Counted from the stretch's first letter, positions 1 through 26,918 are shown. The stretch is 34,317 bases of DNA from an uncultured delta proteobacterium (GCA_903894755.1 CAITRH010000055.1:1-34317), one strand, 5' to 3'. Made by a program: numbers and translations. Notes: a model not told the origin generated them from the sequence alone.

Positions 1-3000
1 TACGTGCGCTGGACGCTTGAAGTTAAAATCAATGTACCCCTTCGGGTTCGCATCGTCGAATACAACGCTCCCCTGATCCAAGTCGTGGAACTTGCCAAAC
101 GCATACAGCTTCCCACGCTGCACCGTCAGCTTCCCTCGCACGTCGCGCCCGCCAGGACGGGTCACTACCCGCAATGCCCCTGACGCCCACAAATCTAGCG
201 GCGCCTGCTGCACATGGACCCCACGCGACAGATCAATCTCAATCTCTGCTCCTCGCGCCTCCTGCACCTCCCCTGCCTTGGGTGGCTCCACAACCTCGGC
301 TCGCTTTGGGACCGGCAGCGATCCCACCCGCACTCCCGGCTCTCCTACGAATGCAACATCCCCCAGCGACGTCGCCTCTGGCTGCAGCGCCCTGGCAAAA
401 CGCTCGGGAACCAACATCTCAAGAGCCCGCACCTCGATACGCACCTTCTTTACCGGTGCTCCTAGATCCGCAACGCGTACCCCAAGATCGGCCGTAAGGG
501 TCCCACGAGGAGCATCGGCGGCTCCAAGGCTTCCACCGAAAAGAAGCCAGTCACTCGAGTTGACGTCCAGTGCCAACGCCCCTGGTTTCAACCCATTCCA
601 AGCCATCTGCCCGCGTATGCCTACGCTCCTTCCGCTCTTCTGACGGTCCGACTCGCGCGCCGTAATCCCCACAATGCGAAGTGCGTCCGCGTCGCTTGCA
701 ATCTTGACCTCCACGTTGTCGTAGACCCGTCCGCTCTCCGGTATCCGCACCTTTCCTTTGCTCACCCCAAGGGTCCCTCGCAGTGCAGCGTTCACAAGCT
801 TCTTGGTCTCGCCCGATACTGCAAGATCGGCCCCGAAGTCCATCTGCCAGTCGAGCCGCCCTTCAATGCCAAGGTCCCGCCCTGCCATCGCAAACGCTGG
901 GACCAGACGACGTAGGTCCACATCGGAAGCTCGCGCGCGTCCTCCTAGACGCACCGTGCCGCTCTTTGCCTTTAGTGTCCCAATCGCCGACGCCACATCG
1001 GGAACCTGCAACACAAGTTGCACCGGCGCAGCCCCCGCAGTGGGAGCCCCCAGGTCTACCCGCACCGCAAGCTCTGAGGAAGCCCCGTCCACATGTACCG
1101 CAACGCGTCCGCGGTCCCCTGCAAGCGTGGCGAAGTCGTCGTACACAATGTCGCCATTGACCACTGGACTCGCGGTCGTTCCTCGCACGCGCCACTCGCC
1201 TGCAAGACGTCCAGGAAGCTTGGCGAGCGCCGGGAACGTTGCACCGAGGTCCGCCATCGTGTGCGACGGTATCTGGATGGTGACCCCCAGTGCCCTTTCC
1301 CCCACTTGCTTGGTCTTCAGAGCCGTGATCAACCCGGTTCCTCCCAGTTCGACCCGTCCGCCCCCATGAAGCAGCTCGCTTCCATTGGCGCGCACTCCTA
1401 GATCGACTTCGGTGTGCTCCGGCTCGACAGCGAATCCAAGGGCTACGTCGAGAGGTCCGACGCGGGGGTTGCCTACGCCAGCAAGGGCGACATTGCCTTT
1501 GCCAAAAAGGTCGCGGCGGTTGCCACGTAGCGCCACATGCGCGGTGACGTTGCCTGTGGGTCCATCGGCCTTGCCCGTGAGCTCCGCAATGCGCTGGGTG
1601 AGCAAGTTGAGGTCCACGTTCCAGTCCGCGTCCCAGCCCGGGCCAAGGATTGGACTTCCCGTGAGTTGAGCGTGCGCTTGAACGGTGGCAGCTTGGTCGG
1701 GACGTCCATCAAGCCAAACGCCCACACCGGCGTCGACTGCGGATCCACGGGCGCCAGGAGTCACGGTGGCGTGGACTTCCAGGCGTCGTTCTCGTCCATC
1801 GGAAACCAACGTGGCGTTTGCGTCGACGTTGCCACTAGGCGAGTGGGCCGAGCCACGGAGGTCGGCGTGCGCTTCGATGCTGCCTGTGGGGAGTTTTTTT
1901 CCAGCGAGCAAGGCTTCGGGGAGAGCCGCTAGGAGCTCGGTGATGTCCTGTCTTGGGATGTCGAGCTTGATGGCGACAGGCTCGCCGTAGGCAAGACGCG
2001 ACTTTGCTTCGGGAGTGGGAATACGCAAGGGAAGATGGATCCCCAACGTTGCGACTGGGGAAGCGCTCTCGCGTGAGGCGCGGACTACGTGAACTCCCAT
2101 GTCGACATGACGTTTGCTGGCGTTGCCACGTGCGTGCACTCGCAGCGCTTGGCCGCCACGTCCCTCAGCCTGCACCTGGAGCTGGTAGTCGATAAGGGGC
2201 TCTTCGGCGCTTCCCCGCACCTTGATCCCGCCACTTGCCCAGCCGCCGATTTTGGGCGGAGGCTTTCCTGCAAGCGCTGCAAGGGCCCCGAGCGAGAGCC
2301 CGTCGAGTTGGACTTCAGCATCCACAGAGCCAACCCGCATGGTCTTGCCATCGGCATCGGGGGCTTGCCTCGCAAGGGCCACGTTGCCTGTCAGTCGTAC
2401 CCGACCTCCAGCTACGCGGAGTGTGCTGGGCTCGACGCGGACCGTAAGTCCCTCGGCAACCTTGCCTTCGACCACGAGGGCAAGGCCTCCTTCGAGTGCA
2501 ATGCCCGAAATGCGCGGAGGGACCTTGACACCTGCGGCACGAAGGCCAGCGAGGGTCTTGGGGACATCGCCCGTGAGGACCGTGCGCAGTTTCAGCTCTT
2601 TGGTTCCGAGGTGGTAGGTGCCACTGAGGGCGAGTGTTTCGGAGAGGGCGCGCAGCTCGAAGGAGTCGATGGTGAGCTGTTCGTTGGCAAGGCGACCTTC
2701 CATGCGGGCGCCGTCGATGGGGATCGCTTTGAACTTGGTGGGGCCAAGGTCGAGGGTGATGCGAGCGTCGGCGTCTTCCTTTTTTGCGCCCGAGCCGGCG
2801 ATACGAAGAGCGAGGCGTTGGACCTCCACGGGAGGGGCCTTGTCGGATAGAAGCAGCCGCGCCACGGAGATGTCACTTGCACCGAGCGTGAGGTCGTAGG
2901 CAGGCCGATCGAGGTGGGACGCGTCCACTGTGCCTGCGAGGGTGACGACTCCGCCCTTGGTCGTGAGGCGCGTATCGACTGCGAGGCGGTCGGTGGGGCC

Positions 3001-4107
3001 GGAGATCTTGGCTTCGAGCTCGGCGTCCGTGGCAAGCAGTGGCTTGCCGGCGAGCGCGTTGATCTTGTCGCCCGACAGGCGCAGCGACATGACACTGAGA
3101 CGTTGATCGCCGACGGGTTTGCCTTCCGCGTGGGACACGTGCACATCGACGGAGGCCAGGACGAGCAGGCCTGCATCAAGCTGCTTGAGGAGGCCGTCGA
3201 GTTTGCCTGGTCCGAGGGCTACGTCGACGCCGCCCAGGGCGAGATCGAGCTCGCGGACGCGGTCCGCTTCGGTGGCTCGCACGTGGGCTTTGGTGTGGCC
3301 GATGGTCACGGTCCCGGCGCCGTCGACGAGCGCAGCGCGAAGCTCCGTGGCGATGTCGGAAATGACCACGGTGGCGGCGGTGGGACGGGTCAACGTGACG
3401 GACGCGATGCTCGGGGTGAGGAGCGCGTCGACGCCTTTGGAGGCGGGGCGCGCGACGACGTTGCCAGACAGCGCAAGGCCTACGATCTCGGTTCTAGCGC
3501 CGTCAGGTTTCTCGAGGGTGACCCGGACCCCGTCGATCGCGATGCTCTTGATCTCGGCGCGTTCGAGCGGCTTTTTCTCCTTGGTCGAGGGGGGCTCGGG
3601 AGGGGCCGGTTTGCGAAGGCGCGAGAGGTTGCTTTTCCCATCTGCACCGGTGCGTACGGTGACCTCGACGTCGTGGAGGCCTAGCTCGTCGACGACCGGG
3701 GACTTGCGGAGAATGCTTCGAGGCTGGAACCGCAGATCGAGGTTGCCGACGCGGACCGCTTCGAGCCCTTCGGGGTCGAAAACGCGAAGTCCCTTCAGAT
3801 GGAGCTGTCCTCCGAAGAGCGAGTAATCGAGGTCAGCGAGCTCGATGCGGCCATCGAGTTTTTCATTGAGGCGCGTCAGGAGCCGTCCCTTGACCGTGGC
3901 GCGTCCGCTGCTCGTGTGGAGCCAGAAGACGAGTCCCGCTAGCAGGACTGCGATCACCCCGACGGTGATGAGGAGTCCGCGAGCGATGCGGCGAGCGACG
4001 CGTCCGACGCGACTTGGTGCTTTGAGCGGAGGGGTGACTGCCGCTTCTGGTTTTGGGGCCACTGGCCCAGTCGATTCAACTTTCGGTGTCGTGGATTCGG
4101 TGGCCAT
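1..4107 (-). CDS. tamB: TamB-like inner-membrane translocation/assembly protein (partial, C-terminus off the left edge)
   Basis: Large envelope-spanning protein of the TamB/AsmA-like family, which bridges the inner membrane and the outer-membrane protein TamA and is linked to autotransporter assembly and phospholipid transfer. The minus frame is open from the ATG at 4107 to the window edge, giving 1369 codons. The N-terminus has a Pro-rich cytosolic tail of about 40 residues. One membrane segment follows (about residues 42-62, LLITVGVIAVLLAGLVFWL), then an AsmA-like start (GRIELADLDYSLFGGQLHLKG). The last visible residues (LTVQRGKLYAFGKF, then GSVVFDDANPKGYIDFNF) match the conserved beta-rich TamB C-terminal domain, so only the extreme end is missing. 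The start overlaps the tamA stop (ATGA), implying translational coupling and supporting a TamA-TamB pair. Family call is firm; substrate is unknown. Confidence 0.9.
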   Translation of the reverse strand, partial: MATESTTPKVESTGPVAPKPEAAVTPPLKAPSRVGRVARRIARGLLITVGVIAVLLAGLVFWLHTSSGRATVKGRLLTRLNEKLDGRIELADLDYSLFGGQLHLKGLRVFDPEGLEAVRVGNLDLRFQPRSILRKSPVVDELGLHDVEVTVRTGADGKSNLSRLRKPAPPEPPSTKEKKPLERAEIKSIAIDGVRVTLEKPDGARTEIVGLALSGNVVARPASKGVDALLTPSIASVTLTRPTAATVVISDIATELRAALVDGAGTVTIGHTKAHVRATEADRVRELDLALGGVDVALGPGKLDGLLKQLDAGLLVLASVDVHVSHAEGKPVGDQRLSVMSLRLSGDKINALAGKPLLATDAELEAKISGPTDRLAVDTRLTTKGGVVTLAGTVDASHLDRPAYDLTLGASDISVARLLLSDKAPPVEVQRLALRIAGSGAKKEDADARITLDLGPTKFKAIPIDGARMEGRLANEQLTIDSFELRALSETLALSGTYHLGTKELKLRTVLTGDVPKTLAGLRAAGVKVPPRISGIALEGGLALVVEGKVAEGLTVRVEPSTLRVAGGRVRLTGNVALARQAPDADGKTMRVGSVDAEVQLDGLSLGALAALAGKPPPKIGGWASGGIKVRGSAEEPLIDYQLQVQAEGRGGQALRVHARGNASKRHVDMGVHVVRASRESASPVATLGIHLPLRIPTPEAKSRLAYGEPVAIKLDIPRQDITELLAALPEALLAGKKLPTGSIEAHADLRGSAHSPSGNVDANATLVSDGRERRLEVHATVTPGARGSAVDAGVGVWLDGRPDQAATVQAHAQLTGSPILGPGWDADWNVDLNLLTQRIAELTGKADGPTGNVTAHVALRGNRRDLFGKGNVALAGVGNPRVGPLDVALGFAVEPEHTEVDLGVRANGSELLHGGGRVELGGTGLITALKTKQVGERALGVTIQIPSHTMADLGATFPALAKLPGRLAGEWRVRGTTASPVVNGDIVYDDFATLAGDRGRVAVHVDGASSELAVRVDLGAPTAGAAPVQLVLQVPDVASAIGTLKAKSGTVRLGGRARASDVDLRRLVPAFAMAGRDLGIEGRLDWQMDFGADLAVSGETKKLVNAALRGTLGVSKGKVRIPESGRVYDNVEVKIASDADALRIVGITARESDRQKSGRSVGIRGQMAWNGLKPGALALDVNSSDWLLFGGSLGAADAPRGTLTADLGVRVADLGAPVKKVRIEVRALEMLVPERFARALQPEATSLGDVAFVGEPGVRVGSLPVPKRAEVVEPPKAGEVQEARGAEIEIDLSRGVHVQQAPLDLWASGALRVVTRPGGRDVRGKLTVQRGKLYAFGKFHDLDQGSVVFDDANPKGYIDFNFKRPAHV

Positions 4108-6140
4108 CAGAATGCCTCCCCGATGCGGAGAAAGACGAGTAACGGGTCGATGGAAGTGGGCGCCTCGAACTTGCCTGCGTCGAGGTATCGGTAGGCAAAG
4201 TCGAGGGCGATGGGGACGAACCAACTGCGGGCGCGGGCGCCTATCCCCACGGCTGCAGAGAGTCCTGACTCGAAGGGATTGGCACGGGCTCCTGCGCCTC
4301 CGAAGTCGTTGAACACGATGAAGCCAAGCTGCTTTTGCGGAGGCAGCAGACGCGCCTCGATGGAGGCTTCGAAGAGGCTAAGTCCCCCCACGGGAATGGT
4401 GCGGCAGGCGGTCCCGTCGCATGCAACGGCTTCGGGCGAAAGACGCTGCCTCGAGTAGCCGCGCATGCCGAAGGCGCCGCCTCCGAAAAGACGAGGACCG
4501 AGCGGTACGCCTTCGTCGCCCTTGAACAGCACCCAGCCGCCAGATACGCGAAACGCGAGGGCTGAAAAGTCGGGCTTCAACGGAATCATCAGGCGCGCTT
4601 CGGGAAGTACCTGGACATACTGATGGGTGGCGATCCCGGGGGGCGAGACGGCGAGGCGGGCGGCGAGGTATTGCCCCGAGAGGGCTTCGATGGTGTCGGG
4701 ACGGGTGTCGTAGACGAGGCCGATGTCGAGCTCACCGCCTCGCGAGGAATTGGAGGTCGGCAAGGCGAAGGCTTGCGTGGCTGCCGGGTCGAAGGCGCCG
4801 AAGTTGACTTGCCAACCGGCTCGAAACAGCGTGTCAAGATCGAAGAAGAGCCCTGGGGCAAGGGTATTGCGGACCCCTGGCCCTGCGGTCACCTCGCGCA
4901 GGTGAAACCCTGGGTAGAGGACATCGCGAAAGCGAGCGCTGAGCCGGAAGTCCCAGGTGCGTCCGAAGAGGCCGGGACGCACGTAACGTGCAGAGGCTTC
5001 GCCGTAGACACCGCTGAAGTCTTCGAAGCTGTCGCGCAGTGGGATGCCATAGCCCGCACGCACGTCGAACTGCAGGTGGTGCATGGGTCCAAAGGCATTG
5101 CGGAGCCAGAGGGACGTGCCAGCTACGGGGTCGATACGTCGCGGGTCGACGTCGACGCCGACGCGGACGCGGAACTGCACGTTGGGGGCTTCGACGACGT
5201 TGACCGTGACGTCGAGGGCAGGATTGAGCTTGCGCGGGACCATGTTGCCTTCGGCGTCGATCTGATCGTCGGTCATGACGCCGCCGGTGTCGGGGACGTC
5301 GCCGATGAAGAGCTCTGTGTCGGCGTTGGTGCTGACGATGGCCGAGGCGTAGGCACCGGAGTCGATGAGGGCGATTTCGGCGCGTTGTTTGATTGCGCCG
5401 CTGTAGGGGGAGCCTTCTTGGAGGCCGGCACGTTCGAGGACCACGTCGGCGGGGACCTTGCGGGCGCCCGTGACGATCAGCTTGCCGATGGTGGTTCGAG
5501 GGCCGGTGTCGACGAAGAAGTGCTGATGGATGCTTTTGTGTTCCCGGTCGACGTAGAAGCGGGTGAAGACGCGGGCGTGTCCGAAGCCTTCACGTTGGAG
5601 GGCCTCGGCCATGTTGTAGCGTCGTCGTCGGCTGACTTCGAGGTCTACGGGCTCGTGGATTTTGGGGAGGATTTTCTGGAGCGCGGCCTCGTGTTCTGGG
5701 GGGGCGTGGCGAAGGGAGACGGCGGCGTTGGTGTAGCGGGGGCCTTCGCGGACGGTCCAAGAGATGGTGGCGCGTTTGGCGGCTTCGTCGATGTCGACTT
5801 TGGGGTCGAGCACTTCGACGTCGAAGTAGCCGGAGATTTCCCAGAACGAGCGGAGTCGTCGTCGGTCTTCGGCGACGCGGAAGGTACTGAAGTAGCGGTC
5901 GCTGTAGATGGCGCTTCCTGGGCGCAATCCGAGCTTGACAAAGAGGGGGCTAGTGTCGAGGGAGAGGCGTTTTCCTCCTTCGCCCTCGATGGATACCTTT
6001 TGGACTTTTATGTCGGTCTCGCCGGGGACGATGGGTTGTCGCACGCGCGGCCGGCAGCCGACGAGCACGAGAAGCAGGACAAAGAGTGCGGTGGAGAAGG
6101 GGTTGTGGCGGGTCCTGGTGGACGCGTCCGGTGGGCGCAT
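4107..6140 (-). CDS. tamA: TamA/BamA-type Omp85 outer-membrane protein with a lipoprotein-like signal
   Basis: Outer-membrane beta-barrel of the Omp85 superfamily, 677 aa from the chosen ATG. About 300 N-terminal residues look like three POTRA domains, for example VQKVSIEG near the start and TIGKLIVTGARKVPADVVLERAGL in the third. A roughly 380-residue barrel follows and carries the conserved loop-6 signature FGGGAFGMRGYSRQR. The chain ends in aromatic F. The signal region is Arg/His, then FSTALFVLLLVLVGC, whose LVGC fits a lipobox; most Omp85 proteins have an ordinary Sec signal. An upstream in-frame start at 6200 would add 20 residues and overlap the preceding gene by 26 bases; ATG 6140 puts the signal peptide in normal position, though its Shine-Dalgarno is poor. 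Adjacency to tamB favours TamA over BamA. Confidence 0.87.
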   Translation of the reverse strand: MRPPDASTRTRHNPFSTALFVLLLVLVGCRPRVRQPIVPGETDIKVQKVSIEGEGGKRLSLDTSPLFVKLGLRPGSAIYSDRYFSTFRVAEDRRRLRSFWEISGYFDVEVLDPKVDIDEAAKRATISWTVREGPRYTNAAVSLRHAPPEHEAALQKILPKIHEPVDLEVSRRRRYNMAEALQREGFGHARVFTRFYVDREHKSIHQHFFVDTGPRTTIGKLIVTGARKVPADVVLERAGLQEGSPYSGAIKQRAEIALIDSGAYASAIVSTNADTELFIGDVPDTGGVMTDDQIDAEGNMVPRKLNPALDVTVNVVEAPNVQFRVRVGVDVDPRRIDPVAGTSLWLRNAFGPMHHLQFDVRAGYGIPLRDSFEDFSGVYGEASARYVRPGLFGRTWDFRLSARFRDVLYPGFHLREVTAGPGVRNTLAPGLFFDLDTLFRAGWQVNFGAFDPAATQAFALPTSNSSRGGELDIGLVYDTRPDTIEALSGQYLAARLAVSPPGIATHQYVQVLPEARLMIPLKPDFSALAFRVSGGWVLFKGDEGVPLGPRLFGGGAFGMRGYSRQRLSPEAVACDGTACRTIPVGGLSLFEASIEARLLPPQKQLGFIVFNDFGGAGARANPFESGLSAAVGIGARARSWFVPIALDFAYRYLDAGKFEAPTSIDPLLVFLRIGEAF

Positions 6141-6174
6141 CCCTTGAACGTATCCTAGAGCTGGAGCAGTGGGG

Positions 6175-6663
6175 CTATGTTGTTTGGTCCCCGAGGACAA
6201 TGGCTACCGCGATGAGCTCCCCGTCCTCGGTGACCAGGCACGTGGCGCAATTGGCGCGGGCAACGACGGTCCCGAGCGAGCAGGGCTCGGCACAACACAG
6301 GGGGACTCCCAGTTTGCCTGCGGGAGAGCCGAGAAACATGGCCTCCATAATCGCGCCTCCTACCATGTTGAGGAGCTCACGCATGGCATCGAGGGCACCG
6401 TCCACAGCGCGCTCATCGGAGTCGTCGATACCCAGGAGATTGGCGGCGAGGGATTGGCCGAAGGTCCTGGAGCCGACGAGTTGAAACTCGCCATGCAAGC
6501 TGGGCATCTCGGCCAATCGGAGCCCCGAAAACGGGAGCTTGACCTGGAGCAGGTGGTCTTGGGGACCAGGCTCGTGGGCGGGTTGCGTAAGCACAAACGC
6601 GGCCTCTTCGAGGATCCGCTCGACAACGCCATGGAGGGTGGAGGACGACAGCTCGGGATTCAC
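6175..6663 (-). CDS. CheX/CheC-like phosphatase-domain protein
   Basis: 162-aa protein resembling CheX/CheC, the phosphatases that dephosphorylate CheY-type receivers. The family's ExxN catalytic motif is visible at E96-x-x-N99 in DAMRELLNMVGG, the usual helix context (E..N followed by a Gly pair). Only one such motif is seen, as in CheX, rather than two as in CheC. The start is GTG at 6663, overlapping the receiver stop by GTGA, with AGAGG six bases upstream. The natural partner is the single-domain receiver encoded immediately before it. The C-terminal third has a Cys cluster (CCAEPC, then NCATC) that is not part of the motif I know; metal binding is possible but unproven. Confidence 0.72.
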   Translation of the reverse strand: MNPELSSSTLHGVVERILEEAAFVLTQPAHEPGPQDHLLQVKLPFSGLRLAEMPSLHGEFQLVGSRTFGQSLAANLLGIDDSDERAVDGALDAMRELLNMVGGAIMEAMFLGSPAGKLGVPLCCAEPCSLGTVVARANCATCLVTEDGELIAVAIVLGDQTT

Positions 6664-7046
6664 GGGTCGCCTCTCAGAAGAACGGTCCGTATGACCTCGC
6701 GAACCCCTTCGGGACGAAACGGTTTCTTCAGATAGGCGCGCACGCCGAGCTTGAGGAGCATCTCGACACGTTCTGGGTTGTGCTCCGCGGAGAACACGAT
6801 GACCGCAATCTTCGACAGCAGGTTGTCTCGCGCCATTTTTTCGACGAGCTCGACGCCGCCCATGCCTGGCATGTTGAGGTCCAGGAACATGACGTCGACG
6901 GAGGTTCGGCTCAGGACCGCGAGCGCCTCGAACCCGTCGACCGCTTCGTGAAAGGACGCGACCTCGAGGTCGGCCATCGTGATGGAGCGCTTGACCATGT
7001 ACCGGATGATCGAGGAGTCATCCACAACGAGCACTGTATAGCTCAC
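6660..7046 (-). CDS. Single-domain CheY-like response regulator
   Basis: A 128-aa stand-alone receiver domain with no output domain. Acidic pair D9-D10 (LVVDDS), phosphoacceptor D56 (VMFLDLNMPGMGG), conserved hydroxyl residue S86 (VIVFSAEH) and Lys108 in KKPF are all present, so it should be phosphorylatable. The start is GTG at 7046, overlapping the HDOD stop (GTGA), with GGAGG six bases upstream; a longer in-frame reading upstream is antisense-style filler lacking receiver features. It sits between an HDOD protein and a CheX-like protein, so a phosphorylation switch read by HDOD and reset by CheX is a plausible inference. No cognate kinase is in the run. Confidence 0.9.
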   Translation of the reverse strand: MSYTVLVVDDSSIIRYMVKRSITMADLEVASFHEAVDGFEALAVLSRTSVDVMFLDLNMPGMGGVELVEKMARDNLLSKIAVIVFSAEHNPERVEMLLKLGVRAYLKKPFRPEGVREVIRTVLLRGDP

Positions 7047-7903
7047 GGCTTGCCTCCATCGGACTGGGAGAACCACTCGGCCATGCCATGGATGGAGTCG
7101 AGGGAGAGGGCGGCGGCTTCTTCGAGCTGATGGACCCGCAGGCCGAGCCTGGCCATCGCCTTGCTGTCCATGGTTCGGGCGAGTCCGCCGCGGTCGGCGC
7201 CAAAGCCGAGTGCGTGGGCAAGGCCGTCGGCGACGTGGACCAGGTCGACCACGGTCTGGTCGGATTCCGCGGTGCTTGGGGCGTGGTGTGAGCGGATGGC
7301 ACAAACGACCGGGGGTGGAAGCTGCCAGCGTGCTGCGACGGCCACTCCAACCTCCGCATGGTCGGTGCCGAGGGCGAGCCGTTCCGCTTCGAGAAACGAG
7401 GTGGCGCCGTGGAGCTGCCGCTGGATCTCTCCCGAGACCTGCATCAGGAAGGTGCCTAACACCAGCTTGCCGATGTCGTGGAGAAGCCCGCAGGTAAACA
7501 CCGCGTCTGGGGCAGCATTGCCAAGGCTGCTCGCGAGCTGCTCGCCTAGAATGGCGACGGCGGCGCAATGGGTCCAGTACCCCTCGGCGGTCATGTCGTA
7601 GCCGGGAAGCACCTTGGGAATAATCCGTCCAAACGACGCGCCTGTGGCCAGCTCGACGACGCGTCGAGTCCCCAGCAGGTTGACCGCCTGTTCGATGGAT
7701 GTGACCGGGTTAGCCACATGAAACAGCGCGGAGTTTGCAACGCGCAGCAGGTTTGCCGCCACGGCCGCGTCGTGCCGAATGACACGCACGAAGTCGGCGG
7801 GCTCGGCCTGATCGTCGCGTGCAAGCTCGGTGAGCCGGGTGAGCGCAACAGGTAGGGTGGGAAGGCTGGTGACGCTCTTCAGGATGGTCTCAACGGAGAA
7901 CAA
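7043..7903 (-). CDS. HDOD-domain signalling protein
   Basis: 286-aa HDOD protein, a relative of HD phosphohydrolases often found beside response regulators and chemotaxis genes; most members have no proven enzyme activity. The HDOD core covers about residues 10-210. Signatures are ILKSVTSLPTLP at the start, RHDAAVAANLLRVANSALF, and CGLLHDIGKLVLG with H142-D143 retained, unlike many HDOD proteins that lose the HD pair. Start chosen is TTG at 7903 because a perfect AAGGAGG lies seven bases upstream; an earlier in-frame start at 7963 would overlap cheD by 85 bases and adds unrelated sequence. The gene begins inside the last codons of cheD and overlaps the next gene by GTGA, so it is tightly coupled in the operon. 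Confidence 0.88.
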   Translation of the reverse strand: MFSVETILKSVTSLPTLPVALTRLTELARDDQAEPADFVRVIRHDAAVAANLLRVANSALFHVANPVTSIEQAVNLLGTRRVVELATGASFGRIIPKVLPGYDMTAEGYWTHCAAVAILGEQLASSLGNAAPDAVFTCGLLHDIGKLVLGTFLMQVSGEIQRQLHGATSFLEAERLALGTDHAEVGVAVAARWQLPPPVVCAIRSHHAPSTAESDQTVVDLVHVADGLAHALGFGADRGGLARTMDSKAMARLGLRVHQLEEAAALSLDSIHGMAEWFSQSDGGKP

Positions 7904-8379
7904 AGGTCCACCTCCTTGCCTTGGGAGCGAATGACCACTCGTCCCGTGGCAATGTAAAGCCAAACGGTCCTAGACACGTCTCCGCCAACGTCTTCGGCGG
8001 TGACCATGACGCCATTTTTCCAGAACAGTTTGCGCAAGATCGTGTAGTTGCGTTTTCCGATATTGAAGACACCGTCTTTGTCTTGGAGCTGCCCTCCGCC
8101 GGCGACGGTCACGACGAGGTTCTCCTTCTTGCAGCCGAGGCGGTACATGGACTCGAAAAGGAGAGGGACCCCGCTGTCGGCGAACATCGCGGGCTTGTCG
8201 CGGGCCTTTTCGGCGTTGAGGCTCGACAGCGGAAGCATGTAATGGATTAGCCCCCCGATGCGCAGGTTCGGCTCGTAGAGCATGACGCCAATGCACGAGC
8301 CGAGCGCGTAGGTCACGAGCGCCGAGTCGGGATCGGAGCTCACTTTGAGGTCCGCGATGTCGACTGCGATCGTTTTCAA
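7879..8379 (-). CDS. cheD: CheD chemoreceptor glutamine deamidase
   Basis: 166-aa CheD homologue. In chemotaxis CheD deamidates glutamines on receptors and can bind CheC. The catalytic triad is visible as T23, C29 (ALGSCIGV) and H46 (GGLIHYMLP), with the same Thr-Cys and Cys-His spacing as in Thermotoga CheD (T21, C27, H44), so activity is likely. The start is TTG at 8379 with AAGGA six bases upstream. It lies 22 bases downstream of cheR. No receptor gene is in the window except the broken Cache remnant near 32.3 kb, so substrates must be encoded elsewhere, or the protein works in a receptor-independent role with the CheX-like partner downstream. Confidence 0.92.
   Translation of the reverse strand: MKTIAVDIADLKVSSDPDSALVTYALGSCIGVMLYEPNLRIGGLIHYMLPLSSLNAEKARDKPAMFADSGVPLLFESMYRLGCKKENLVVTVAGGGQLQDKDGVFNIGKRNYTILRKLFWKNGVMVTAEDVGGDVSRTVWLYIATGRVVIRSQGKEVDLCSPLRPS
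7911..7917 (-). promoter_or_regulatory. Shine-Dalgarno of the HDOD gene, inside cheD
   Basis: AAGGAGG on the minus strand, seven bases before the TTG at 7903. It lies within the cheD codons for Lys-Glu-Val near the C-terminus. It decides the start of the HDOD gene against the longer reading frame beginning at 7963. Confidence 0.8.
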
Positions 8380-8401
8380 CCGCTGTCCTTTTGTCGTCCA
8401 G

Positions 8402-9220
8402 TCACGACGCCCCGCTGCTTGGCTTACGATATACGGACGCGTCGACGCGAACGAGCCCCGAGAGAACCCCGCTCAGCGTTTCCGAGTGCCCGATCATCAG
8501 GTACCCTCCCGGTTTGAGCAAACGTTCGACCTGCACGATCAGGCCCTGGCGGATTGGCTGGTCAAAGTAGATCATAACGTTGCGGCAAAACACCACGTCG
8601 AAAGGTCCCCGCATAGGGTAAGGAGGCATGGCTAAGTTCAACCGGCGAAACAAGATCGCTTCCGTGAGCTTCTCCACGGCCTTGTAAGTCCCGCTCGCTT
8701 TTGCACCTTGACGCACGAAGTAGCTTCCAAGCAGCGCGGGCGGAATCTGGTCGACCGCGGCCGCCTCGTACACTCCGGCGCGCGCCAGCTCCAGCACCCT
8801 TGTGGAAATGTCCGTGGCCAGAAGGCGAAAATCGACCCGATCCTTGCCAAACGCCTCGAACATGGTCATGGCCAACGAGTACGGCTCCTCGCCCGTCGAC
8901 GACGCCGCACACCAGATCCGAAAGCGCCGTTGCCCCTGCGCCAAACAATCGGTGATGACCTCGCTTAACAGCTCGAAGTGATCTGGCTCCCGGAAAAACC
9001 GCGTGTAGTTCGTAGAGATCACGTCGAGAAACTTCACGATCTCTTCGCCCGTGCCATCGTTCTCGAGGTAGTGCAGGTACTCTCTTTCAGTAGCTATCCT
9101 GAGCATCCTTAACCGCTTCGTAATTCGCGACGAGACAAGCGACTCCTTGCCAGGCTTGAGGCTAATGCCCGCCCGCTCGTACGCGATCTCGCAAAATCGA
9201 CGAAAGAGGTCCGAGGTCAT
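8402..9220 (-). CDS. cheR: CheR-type protein-glutamate methyltransferase
   Basis: 272-aa CheR, which transfers methyl from S-adenosylmethionine to receptor glutamates. The N-terminal helical domain covers about residues 5-60. NYTRFFREPDHF precedes the SAM-binding segment IWCAASSTGEEPYSLAM (about 102-118). FDVVFCRNVMIYFD and LLKPGGYLMIGHSE complete the fold. There is no TPR extension. ATG at 9220 is preceded one codon earlier by an in-frame TTG (9223); AAGGTGG sits 6-9 bases upstream of both. First gene of the minus-strand run and divergent from kup. No cheB is adjacent, although methylation and demethylation genes normally pair. Confidence 0.94.
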   Translation of the reverse strand: MTSDLFRRFCEIAYERAGISLKPGKESLVSSRITKRLRMLRIATEREYLHYLENDGTGEEIVKFLDVISTNYTRFFREPDHFELLSEVITDCLAQGQRRFRIWCAASSTGEEPYSLAMTMFEAFGKDRVDFRLLATDISTRVLELARAGVYEAAAVDQIPPALLGSYFVRQGAKASGTYKAVEKLTEAILFRRLNLAMPPYPMRGPFDVVFCRNVMIYFDQPIRQGLIVQVERLLKPGGYLMIGHSETLSGVLSGLVRVDASVYRKPSSGAS

Positions 9221-9344
9221 CAACGACGCCCACCTTGCCCTCCCCCCGTCCCCAACGCAACCCCCTCGCGGGGGGGCAAAACAGGGGCTTCGCCCCTACG
9301 CTCCCGTTGGTCGCTCCCCCTTCCTGCGGGTAGGATGGCCCGCC
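9221..9344. promoter_or_regulatory. Divergent cheR/kup spacer with two GC hairpins
   Basis: 124-bp spacer that must hold promoters for both cheR (leftward) and kup (rightward). It contains two compact inverted repeats: CCCCC-tcgc-GGGGG at 9261-9274 and AGGGGC-ttc-GCCCCT at 9283-9297, followed by a C-rich stretch. Neither is followed by a T run, so they do not read as ordinary terminators. No confident -10/-35 pair could be picked in the GC-rich sequence. Confidence 0.45.
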
Positions 9345-11234
9345 ATGAACCCCCGCCCTCAACACGCCGCAGGATCCCTGCCCCTTACCCTCGGTGCCCT
9401 CGGTGTCGTCTTCGGCGACATTGGAACCTCGCCCCTCTACGCCCTCCGTGAAGCGTTCCGCCCCAACGGCCTCTCGACTTCCCCAGACCACGTCTTCGGT
9501 GTCCTGTCGCTGACCTTCTGGACCCTCATGCTGGTCGTATCCATCAAATACGCCGTCTTCGTCATGCGCGCCGACAACCGCGGCGAAGGAGGGATCCTCG
9601 CCCTCCTTGCCGTCTTGCTCGAAGGCGGAGCCACCGGCAAACGCGCGCGGTTTCTCACGATCCTCGGACTCGTCGGCGCTGCCTTGCTCCTTGCCGATGG
9701 AACCATCACCCCCGCTATCTCCGTCCTTAGCGCCGTGGAAGGACTGACTGTGGCTACCACCGCAGTTACCCCCTGGGTCGTGCCAGTGACCTTGGCTATC
9801 CTCTTCGGGCTCTTTGGCGTGCAGCGCTTCGGAACAGAAAAACTCGCGCGCTTCTTTGGACCCATCATGCTGTTGTGGTTCCTCACCCAGGCTGCCCTCG
9901 GGATCCGCTGGATTGTCCGCGCTCCACAGGTCATCGCCGCTCTCAACCCACTGTATGGCGCTAAACTCCTGATCAACGAGCCCCATGTCACCGTCATTGT
10001 CCTCGGTGCCGTCGTGCTCTGCGTCACTGGCGCTGAAGCGCTCTATGCCGACATGGGACACTTCGGCCGCAGCCCCATTCGCAAAGCTTGGACCATCGTC
10101 GTGCTTCCTGCGTTGGTTCTCAACTACCTCGGTCAAGGCGCCTTTCTCCTTCTGCGACAGCATTCCGTAGGCTCCTCTGAGGAAATCCACCCGTTCTTCG
10201 AAATGGCCCCAGCCCCACTGATCATTCCGCTCGTCGCCCTCGCTACCTTGGCTACAGTGATCGCATCCCAAGCTCTCATCACCGGCGCTTTCTCGCTGGC
10301 GCAGCAGGCCACTGAGCTCGGCTATGTCCCCAGACTCACCATTGTCCACACCTCCAAGGACGTCGAAGGACAGATCTTTGTCCCGTTTGTCAGCCAGCTC
10401 CTTGCCGTGGTCTGTGCCCTGCTCGTTATCGAATTCAAAAGCTCCTCGAACCTCGCGGCCGCCTATGGCATCGCCGTCGTCACCACGATGTTCGTAACCA
10501 CCCTCTTGCTGTTCGATGTCGCCCGAACAACCTGGAACTGGGGCTTGCGAGGGGCCGTTCCACTGGCACTGCTGCTGCTCGCCGTCGATACCCCGCTGCT
10601 CCTCGCTAACCTTGCCAAGATCCCCGCTGGAGGCTGGGTCCCGCTCACCATGGGCGCCGTCTTGCTCGTGCTGTCGCTCACCTGGGTCTGGGGACGAAAT
10701 ACCCTGGCGGACCCCTTTGTCAGTGAGTCCTTTGTCTACCCTGTAGCCCCCTTTGTCGAGGAGATCGTCGAAGCCACTCGGATCGCAGGTGCCGCTGTCG
10801 TGCTCACAGGACGGGCCGATGTGGTCCCTACAAGTTTTCTCTATCACTACCACCGTACCCTGGTTTTGCCACACACCGTCGTGCTGGTCACCATCAAGAC
10901 CCGTCATGTGCCCAGGATTGAAGACGACCAATGGCTCGATGTTCGCTCGTTCGGAAGTGGCATCTGGGGCGTTACGGCCCACCACGGCTTTCTCGAACGC
11001 ATCGACATTGCACACGTGCTGACGTCGTGCCGACCCCACGGCCTCGAGCTCGATCCCGAGGGGGTCGACTACTACCTGTCAGGTCTCACCTTGGTCCCAA
11101 AGGCAAGTGGGATCTTGCGCTCCTGGCGAAAGCGTCTCTTTGCATTCCTGTATCACAACGAGCGTTCTGTTGTGTCGTTCTTCAATATCCCCACCAACCG
11201 GGTGATCGAATTGGGACGTCAGGTGGAGCTATGA
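9345..11234 (+). CDS. kup: Kup-family potassium uptake transporter
   Basis: 629-aa Kup (HAK/KUP) K+/H+ symporter of the inner membrane, close to the usual bacterial length of about 620. The N-terminal signature GALGVVFGDIGTSPLYALRE is intact. About 12 hydrophobic segments follow up to about residue 465, then a roughly 160-residue cytosolic domain typical of the family. ATG at 9345 has AGGA nine bases upstream; the open frame extends back to 9147 but that part overlaps the divergent cheR start region and has no Kup similarity. The stop overlaps the next gene's ATG (ATGA), so the transporter and a hybrid histidine kinase are probably co-translated, an unusual pairing. Confidence 0.95.
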   Translation: MNPRPQHAAGSLPLTLGALGVVFGDIGTSPLYALREAFRPNGLSTSPDHVFGVLSLTFWTLMLVVSIKYAVFVMRADNRGEGGILALLAVLLEGGATGKRARFLTILGLVGAALLLADGTITPAISVLSAVEGLTVATTAVTPWVVPVTLAILFGLFGVQRFGTEKLARFFGPIMLLWFLTQAALGIRWIVRAPQVIAALNPLYGAKLLINEPHVTVIVLGAVVLCVTGAEALYADMGHFGRSPIRKAWTIVVLPALVLNYLGQGAFLLLRQHSVGSSEEIHPFFEMAPAPLIIPLVALATLATVIASQALITGAFSLAQQATELGYVPRLTIVHTSKDVEGQIFVPFVSQLLAVVCALLVIEFKSSSNLAAAYGIAVVTTMFVTTLLLFDVARTTWNWGLRGAVPLALLLLAVDTPLLLANLAKIPAGGWVPLTMGAVLLVLSLTWVWGRNTLADPFVSESFVYPVAPFVEEIVEATRIAGAAVVLTGRADVVPTSFLYHYHRTLVLPHTVVLVTIKTRHVPRIEDDQWLDVRSFGSGIWGVTAHHGFLERIDIAHVLTSCRPHGLELDPEGVDYYLSGLTLVPKASGILRSWRKRLFAFLYHNERSVVSFFNIPTNRVIELGRQVEL

Positions 11235-13255: not shown

Positions 13256-13714
13256 GCCACTCGCAACGCTTGATGGTCACGCGAGAGGCAAGGACCGGAG
13301 AGCATCGCACGGTGAGATCGTCCGCAGGGAAAGCCACGACGGGACCCGGCGGGACAACTTCTGTCGGCGACGTTGCCGCGGAAGGCCGCGACACGAGAGG
13401 GGCCGTTCAGGAAACCGCTGCCTGAGGGGATGACACGGCGACTGCCGCGCGCGCGATCGCCGTGCAAGCGCTTGCGCGGCGACTTCTGCGGTCGATTTCG
13501 CGGTGCAAGCGCTTGCGGAGCGACTTCTGCGGTCGATTTCGCGGTGCAAGCGCTTGCGCGGCGACTTCTGTGGTCGATTTCGCGGTGCAAGCGCTTGCGC
13601 GGCGACTTCCGCGGTCGATTTCGCGGTGCAAGCGCTTGCGCGGCGACTTCCGCGGCAGATCTCGTGGTTGCGGGCGGTTGCGAGGCGATTTCCGCGGGAA
13701 AGGGGCCAAGTCCC
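13256..13714. other. Convergent intergenic region, 459 bp
   Basis: Spacer between the stop of the hybrid kinase and the stop of the minus-strand AgmX-type lipoprotein gene. The first 200 bp show nothing recognisable. The rest is the 41-bp tandem array described separately. Open frames cross the spacer on both strands because stop codons are rare in this GC-rich sequence. They have no start context, and the 41-bp period forces a frame change at every repeat, so I do not call them genes. Confidence 0.6.
13464..13699. repeat. 41-bp tandem repeat array, about 5.7 units, each with a 12-bp palindrome
   Basis: Units start at 13464, 13505, 13546, 13587 and 13628 at an exact 41-bp period, followed by a decayed unit near 13670. 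Each of the five good units opens with the perfect palindrome GCAAGCGCTTGC, then a conserved part containing GGTCGATTTCGCGGT. Substitutions among units (for example GCG to GGA after the palindrome in unit 2, C to T in unit 3, and several in unit 5) all fall outside the palindrome. Since 41 is not a multiple of 3 it is not a protein repeat. The palindrome has the AAnCGnTT core seen in many LacI-family operators, but its location after two converging genes argues against a simple promoter operator. Confidence 0.9.
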
Positions 13715-20224: not shown

Positions 20225-21301
20225 ATGAACCAGAACGAACTTGGCGGCCGCATCGTCGCACATGCCGATGAATGGGCCAGAGCGATTGTCGACCTGCAAT
20301 ACACCAGGCATCCTGATCTGACCGCTCGCTACGGCGGGACCGGCTACGCCAAGTGCCTCGAGGACACCCGGCACGTGCTCATCTACCTTGGGGAGTCCGT
20401 TGTCGCCGACTCCCCCCAGCTCTTCGAGCACTTCATTGGATGGGTACGTACGGTATTCTTAGCCTATGGGGTGCACGAGGAGGACCTCGTCAGCCTTCTC
20501 GTGATACTGCGCGAGCACCTCGCCAGCGTTTTGCCCTGTGAGGCCCTGCCCGTCGTCGCGGTGCACATCGACGTAGCCGAGGCGATGCTTCGATCGCCGT
20601 TTCAGTCTCCTCCGGTCCAAGTCGACCCGTCGGCCCCCCACGGTGCCCTGGCCACTCAGTACCTCGAGGTTCTCCTCAAGAGCGACCGCTTCGCCGCAAG
20701 CACGCTGATCCGGAGTGCCGTGGCTGACGGTGTCTCGGTCCGCGACGTCTACCTGCACGTGTTACAACCGGTCCAGCGTGAAGTGGGACGTCTCTGGCAG
20801 ACCCGTCGCATCAGCGTGGCCCAGGAACACTACGCAACAGCGGTCACGCAATTGGTGATGTCGCAACTTTATCCGCTTAATTTCTCGTCAAACAAGAACG
20901 GGCTCCGCCTTGTGGCGACCTGCGTGGGCGGCGAGCTCCACGAGCTTGGAATCCGGATGGTCGCCGACATTTTCGAAATGGATGGCTGGGACAGTTGCTA
21001 CCTAGGGGCCAACACACCTTCAGAAAGCGTGGTCCGTACGGTTGTCGAACGCAACGCCGACGTACTGGCGATCAGCGCCACCATGACCTCACATGTGCCT
21101 CGTGTCGCCGCGATCGTCGATGCCGTGCGAAAACAAGGACTCGACCATGTTGTCGTGATGGCTGGCGGCTACCCGTTCAACTTGGTGGGCGATCTCTGGA
21201 AACGCGTGGGGGCCGATGGATATGCGGCCACAGCCGATGTGGCCCCTTCCATCGCGCTCGATCTCGTTCGCCAACGCCGAAGCGCGGTTCACAAGTCTTG
21301 A
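20225..21301 (+). CDS. Cobalamin-binding sensor resembling the CarH light-sensing module
   Basis: 358-aa protein. The C-terminal 200 residues look like the helical cap plus Rossmann-type B12-binding domains of CarH/MerR-type photoreceptors. Visible: W191 and, nine residues on, E201-H202 (LWQTRRISVAQEHY), the W-x9-EH signature of the adenosylcobalamin cap; then E237-L-H239-E-L-G, the ExHxxG motif whose His is the lower cobalt ligand; then a GANTPSE and MAGGYPF-type fold. The N-terminal part (about 1-135) is mostly helical and is not a MerR helix-turn-helix. CarH has a His right after the Trp that ligates cobalt after light exposure; here it is Gln192. So B12 binding is likely, DNA binding unlikely, and the photochemistry may differ. 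Followed 33 bases later by sixA. Confidence 0.82.
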   Translation: MNQNELGGRIVAHADEWARAIVDLQYTRHPDLTARYGGTGYAKCLEDTRHVLIYLGESVVADSPQLFEHFIGWVRTVFLAYGVHEEDLVSLLVILREHLASVLPCEALPVVAVHIDVAEAMLRSPFQSPPVQVDPSAPHGALATQYLEVLLKSDRFAASTLIRSAVADGVSVRDVYLHVLQPVQREVGRLWQTRRISVAQEHYATAVTQLVMSQLYPLNFSSNKNGLRLVATCVGGELHELGIRMVADIFEMDGWDSCYLGANTPSESVVRTVVERNADVLAISATMTSHVPRVAAIVDAVRKQGLDHVVVMAGGYPFNLVGDLWKRVGADGYAATADVAPSIALDLVRQRRSAVHKS

Positions 21302-26586: not shown

Positions 26587-26918
26587 GGAGCGGACCGTAC
26601 CACGAGATCCTTCGAAAAGCGCGCCCTTGCCACGACAACTCCTGACGCACGTTTCCACCCGCTCCGGCCCCCAAGGCGAGATTTCACCGCACCCGAGTGT
26701 CCCCCTCGCTCCCTAAGCCTCCGTGCCGTCGCCAAGGACCTTCCCCCTCGCTCCCTAAGCCTCCGTGCCGTCGCCAAGGACCTTCCCCCTCGCTCCCTAA
26801 GCCTCCGTGCCGTCGCCAAGGACCTTCCCCCTCGCTCCCCAAGGCTCCGTGCCTCGTTAGAACTGGTGCGCTAGGCGAAGCAGGACCATAGTGCCACGAT
26901 GGGTCGGAGCCTCCTTGA
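26587..26918. promoter_or_regulatory. Divergent tatB/GGDEF spacer containing a tandem repeat
   Basis: 332 bp between tatB (leftward) and the diguanylate cyclase gene (rightward). It contains the 42-bp repeat array at 26701-26857, flanked by about 110 bp on the tatB side and 60 bp on the cyclase side. Promoters for both genes should lie here; none could be picked by eye. Confidence 0.5.
26701..26857. repeat. 42-bp tandem repeat, 3 perfect copies plus a partial
   Basis: Identical units at 26701-26742, 26743-26784 and 26785-26826, then a diverged partial copy to about 26857 where TAAGCC becomes CAAGGC. Each unit begins CCCCCTCGCTCCCTAAGCC and ends CCAAGGACCTT. Being 14 codons long the unit stays in frame and gives Arg-rich or Pro-rich translations on both strands, but no start site or neighbouring gene uses them. 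Perfect identity of three copies suggests recent expansion, so copy number may vary between strains. Confidence 0.92.

Follow-up and report, generated by a model that had tools for sequence, protein, structure and literature searches.

What does a set of chemotaxis genes signify when it encodes the enzymes that modify receptors and terminate a phosphorylation signal, and neither kinase nor receptor lies nearby? Such a locus is found at positions 9220-6175 of the minus strand of the window, the whole stretch of DNA analyzed here, which is the complete contig C55 (34,317 bases); the draft genome to which it belongs comprises 6.78 Mb on 778 contigs. Five genes form one run in the same direction, namely cheR (8402-9220), encoding a receptor methyltransferase of 272 aa, cheD (7879-8379, TTG start), encoding a receptor glutamine deamidase of 166 aa, an HDOD gene (7043-7903, TTG start at 7903 preceded by a GGAGG site; about 286 aa), a gene for a CheY-like, single-domain receiver of 128 aa (6660-7046, GTG start), and cheX (6175-6663, GTG start), encoding a CheX-type CheY-P phosphatase of 162 aa. 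Their domain content was assigned by Pfam profile search, with matches to PF01739 (189 bits) and PF03705 (51 bits) in CheR, PF03975 (101 bits) in CheD, PF08668 (185 bits) in the HDOD protein, PF00072 (Response_reg, 83 bits) in the receiver, and PF13690 in CheX. The row of five signaling genes described in the sequence-only reading is borne out by these matches, with all catalytic motifs intact. Its stop/start overlaps hold from cheD to cheX, where cheD overlaps the HDOD gene and the next two junctions overlap by 4 bases each, but not between cheR and cheD, which are separated by a gap of 22 bases. On the same strand, the run continues into tamA (4107-6140, ATG start at 6140; Omp85/POTRA, PF01103 and PF07244) and tamB (1-4110; PF04357, truncated by the contig end), as had been stated, although the spacing between cheX and tamA is 34 rather than 35 bases; both are neighbors outside the chemosensory module. 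On the other side, kup lies on the opposite strand from position 9345. The region 5900-9400 yielded neither a promoter-like nor a terminator-like consensus, which is weak evidence in a GC-rich genome.

The signaling proteins retain their catalytic residues. The PF01739 match of CheR spans 181 of the 195 model positions, CheD retains C29 and H46, which are invariant in the alignment with its homologs, and alignment of the receiver shows D9, D10, D56, S86, and K108 all retained. CheX requires closer inspection, as its Pfam score of 22.5 bits falls below the cut-off of 27. However, CheX homologs at the equivalent place in relatives score 49.4 and 32.3 bits, above that cut-off, and a profile built from the homologs matches solved CheX/CheC proteins. 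The active-site motif D92-x3-E96-x2-N99-x21-P121 fits the pattern D-x3-E-x2-N-x(21-22)-P, and E96, N99, and G103 are invariant in 31 homologs. In addition, the AlphaFold model (pLDDT 91.4) has its best PDB fold matches among CheX structures (3h4y, 6vpw, 3hm4, 1squ, and 3hzh, with a probability of 1.00), including the CheX-CheY complex of Borrelia burgdorferi (3hzh). Because syntenic homologs pass the cut-off and both profile and fold agree, the assignment to CheX is secured; the shortfall is a threshold missed through divergence, and no structural or catalytic feature is missing. The gene claimed earlier to encode a CheX-like phosphatase is thus placed in that family by motif, profile, and predicted fold.

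The five-gene order is conserved in relatives, yet it sits within complete che operons and is not free-standing there. Using the CheX protein as the sole query recovered only 6 of 145 relatives, because CheX evolves fast, and CheD proved the better handle, with matches in 30 of the 145, and CheD-based searching of public genomes yielded 80 named loci. These 80 loci were chosen by CheD similarity and their genes were called with profile models built in this analysis; the run counts are minima, as overlapping frames break some runs. CheD-HDOD-receiver-CheX is contiguous in at least 46 of the 80 loci and CheD-receiver-CheX in at least 10 more, while CheA is found on the same examined stretch in 61 and CheB directly after CheX in 45. 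Most frequent are the layout cheA-cheW-(mcp)-cheR-cheD-HDOD-cheY-cheX-cheB and near variants of it, in loci from Myxococcota, Thermodesulfobacteriota, Planctomycetota (mostly Phycisphaerae), Zixiibacteriota, and Acidobacteriota. In four relatives at the family or order level, the block likewise lies inside a che cluster with CheB immediately after CheX. One of them, G043, whose CheD is 64% identical to that of the window, has the exact five-gene order including HDOD, while G023, G093, and G003 show the order without HDOD; the operon of G023, for example, reads cheA-cheW-mcp-cheR-cheD-REC-cheX-cheB. Break-up of the che operon is not unusual. In G145, one contig encodes CheD-HDOD-REC-CheX and a different one CheA-CheW-MCP-CheR-CheB, and in G148, CheA-CheW-MCP is separated from CheR-CheD-HDOD-REC-CheX-CheB.

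The combination of CheR, CheD, CheY, and CheX is characteristic of CheC/CheD/CheX-type chemotaxis, known from Bacillus subtilis and Thermotoga maritima. The window shares CheR, CheD, a CheY-like receiver, and CheX with these systems, all with their active-site motifs preserved, but differs in lacking CheC, in carrying an HDOD gene between cheD and cheY, and in having its kinase, CheW, and receptor on another contig, with no operon-type CheB found. An interaction between CheD and CheC is described in PMC3513319. Stand-alone HD-domain proteins also have a precedent, as the group alpha che clusters of Geobacter, reported only from Geobacteraceae, include such a gene, of unknown role (PMC2577667), a likeness that is drawn here from the published description. 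In Myxococcus xanthus, of the same phylum, many che genes and receptors are likewise orphans located outside operons, but the species is reported to have no CheD or CheX homolog (PMC3945109), whereas the genome studied here has both. Compared with the complete cheA-...-cheB operons, the window shares the gene order, and its CheR, like the CheA discussed below, groups with operon members, but it represents the middle part only, placed beside kup and tamAB. The kind of locus is therefore already known, and its layout is rearranged.

The absence of CheA, CheW, CheB, and a receptor from the locus had been noted. This holds on contig C55, but beyond that contig the MCP domain has 17 matches in the genome and the CheW domain 19, a number that takes in the CheA proteins. 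Among these, contig C329 carries cheA-cheW-mcp, with no cheR, cheD, cheX, or cheB within 19.9 kb, and its receptor consists of PAS, four HAMP_2 stretches, and a signaling domain. Over 855 aa, the C329 CheA shares 57% identity with the CheA encoded in the operon of G023, a relative at the family level, while the next-best CheA of the genome studied here reaches 34% to that protein. In the CheA tree, the C329 protein is sister to that of G023 (support 97) in a 14-row clade of Myxococcota operons (support 100), and the CheR tree places the window CheR in the corresponding 24-row clade with CheRs of complete operons (support 99). Tree distances of the window CheR track those of the C329 CheA across 55 loci (r = 0.80), whereas r is at most 0.08 with the other CheAs of the genome, a contrast aided by the position of those CheAs outside the C329/G023 clade; for reference, same-locus CheA-CheR pairs in other genomes correlate at 0.72. 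Because of this sister grouping and distance tracking, C329 and the window are most likely two halves of one broken operon. We infer the physical split from two contigs of a 778-contig assembly, each cluster being flanked by unrelated genes; a chimeric assembly is conceivable but improbable.

Some further features of C329 and related sequences were observed. The first ~135 codons of the cheA frame (L082 5629-6030) pass through a tandem array, and the true start is probably near 'MALNLFLDEL', downstream of the array. Tandem arrays with units of 41-43 bases occur at L082 5778-6016, directly upstream of this likely start, and in the window at 13436-13697 and 26700-26853, both outside the main genes. 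A second cheD is isolated on contig C279 (6099-6695, L088), with no che neighbors. As to CheB, which is usual, though not universal, in the CheD/CheX class, no operon-type cheB was found on C55 or C329. A 330-aa gene after mcp on C329 was considered and rejected, as its sequence is SAM methyltransferase-like and the CheB model gives no match. The closest CheBs of the genome (50-52%) lie on C589 and C727 within other che clusters, and the tree placement of the C589 protein as an ortholog is weak (support 84).

How then should the proximity to tamAB be read? The sequence-only reading regarded the che block as fused to tamAB, and this did not survive comparison: orthologs of tamA were examined in 15 relatives (43-52% identical), and in none of the 15 do cheR, cheD, HDOD, or cheX lie near the gene, and on this ground a conserved che-tamAB unit was rejected. 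The genes upstream of tamA vary between these genomes, and receiver domains occur near it in two of the 15, in unrelated proteins. The tamA-tamB pairing itself is kept in many relatives, and G023, which has a tamA ortholog as well as the che operon, carries the two on separate contigs. The link between che and tam is therefore confined to the genome studied here, and tamA and tamB most likely lie beside the che block by chance, although co-transcription of cheX and tamA in this genome is possible. A free-standing, CheA-independent phosphorylation switch, co-expressed with tamAB and thereby controlling envelope assembly, would fit the shared strand, the short cheX-tamA gap, and the lack of a consensus terminator or promoter between the two genes. 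Yet the usual neighbors of the block are cheA, cheW, mcp, and cheB rather than tamA, the same genome encodes a CheA that matches, and in all eight tested genomes whose CheD locus had no nearby cheA, CheA is encoded elsewhere, so that a CheA-free system was rejected as a candidate. With the block belonging to complete operons in relatives and the matching cheA-cheW-mcp on C329, the switch proposed earlier is no longer upheld and seems highly improbable.

Two other explanations were weighed. The block could serve one, several, or all of the other che systems of the genome (on C727, C589, C305, C423, and C744) as a shared pool of adaptation enzymes and phosphatase, considering that the many receptors are accompanied by only one other CheD, that on C279, and by one match to the window CheX. 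However, each of these five systems has its own cheR, four also have cheB right beside it, and the window CheR pairs phylogenetically with C329 and not with them, making such a pool unlikely. Alternatively, the block may really adjoin the C329 cluster, and the split may have arisen in assembly or binning, as a draft of 778 contigs might lead one to suspect. But both clusters are internal to their contigs with different coding genes on each side, GC content shows no jump (0.60-0.66), and comparable splits occur in two further genomes, so an artefact is very unlikely. The che block is most likely the receptor-adaptation and signal-termination half of a CheD/CheX-type system whose operon has been broken, with the kinase half on C329.

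For a broken operon of this kind, a signaling scheme can be outlined that rests on the known biochemistry of the protein families and on the pairing with C329; it is the most likely one, and we infer its phosphotransfer, the role of HDOD, and the cellular output. The ancestral operon would have been cheA-cheW-mcp-cheR-cheD-HDOD-cheY-cheX-cheB, later broken up in this genome, with the adjacency to tamAB as a by-product of rearrangement. The C329 receptor, with its PAS domain and repeated HAMP, would together with CheW control the C329 CheA, and CheA-P, judging from the families, would phosphorylate the window receiver at Asp56. CheX would then strip the phosphate from the receiver via Glu96 and Asn99, while CheR would methylate and CheD deamidate the C329 receptor or others, leading to adaptation; indeed, CheR and CheD could serve several of the receptors of the genome. 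Finally, the HDOD protein would work next to the receiver, serving as its output or as a docking partner. Regarding motility genes, fliH and fliG are adjacent on contig C255 (L243 158-1862), and no match to the FliM family was found in the genome, which is said to be 99.8% complete; the missing match may mean that the switch is divergent, that there is a gap, or that the system is flagellum-like. Elsewhere in the window, at 25285-22679, a gene for a membrane histidine kinase with a PilS-like layout comes 3 bases after a T2SS/type IV pilus F-type (PilC-like) gene. At 20225-21301, the window encodes a B12-binding-domain protein with a weak N-terminal match to the Phycobilisome family, below the curated cut-off.

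The HDOD protein, encoded between CheD and CheY across the phyla named above, is the member of the block that most invites further study. Its HD pair, already noted as intact, is confirmed, as are the further histidines of the HD-type set that complete the metal site (residue numbers refer to the 306-aa frame 7963-7043), and such an intact pair is also common among related HDOD proteins. Of 65 HDOD proteins from related loci, all have D163, 64 retain H202 and H226-H227, 49 retain H162, and 47 retain H132, while the H of the HD pair is replaced by K or R in 16. The HDOD and receiver genes are adjacent in most related loci. In G043, the two are fused in one reading frame of 462 aa at the equivalent operon position (L079 6721-8109), which hints at a physical link between HDOD and receiver, although one such fusion, seen in a draft genome, is no more than suggestive. 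The HDOD protein may thus dock to the receiver or serve as its output. More broadly, it could tentatively be speculated that HDOD is a conserved, dedicated CheY partner in a widespread CheD/CheX chemosensory class, either as a metal-dependent hydrolase switched by CheY-P or as a docking output. A non-exhaustive literature search found no published description of an HDOD gene between cheD and cheY.

These results assign a likely kinase and receptor to the orphan che genes of the window, and they illustrate how a locus viewed in isolation can give the impression of a kinase-free switch though it is probably half of a broken-up operon. The wider point is that operons of distant phyla keep an HDOD gene in the position between cheD and cheY. 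If HDOD is indeed a dedicated partner of CheY, it would represent a little-described output arm of chemosensory signaling that several phyla share and that does not depend on the tam genes.
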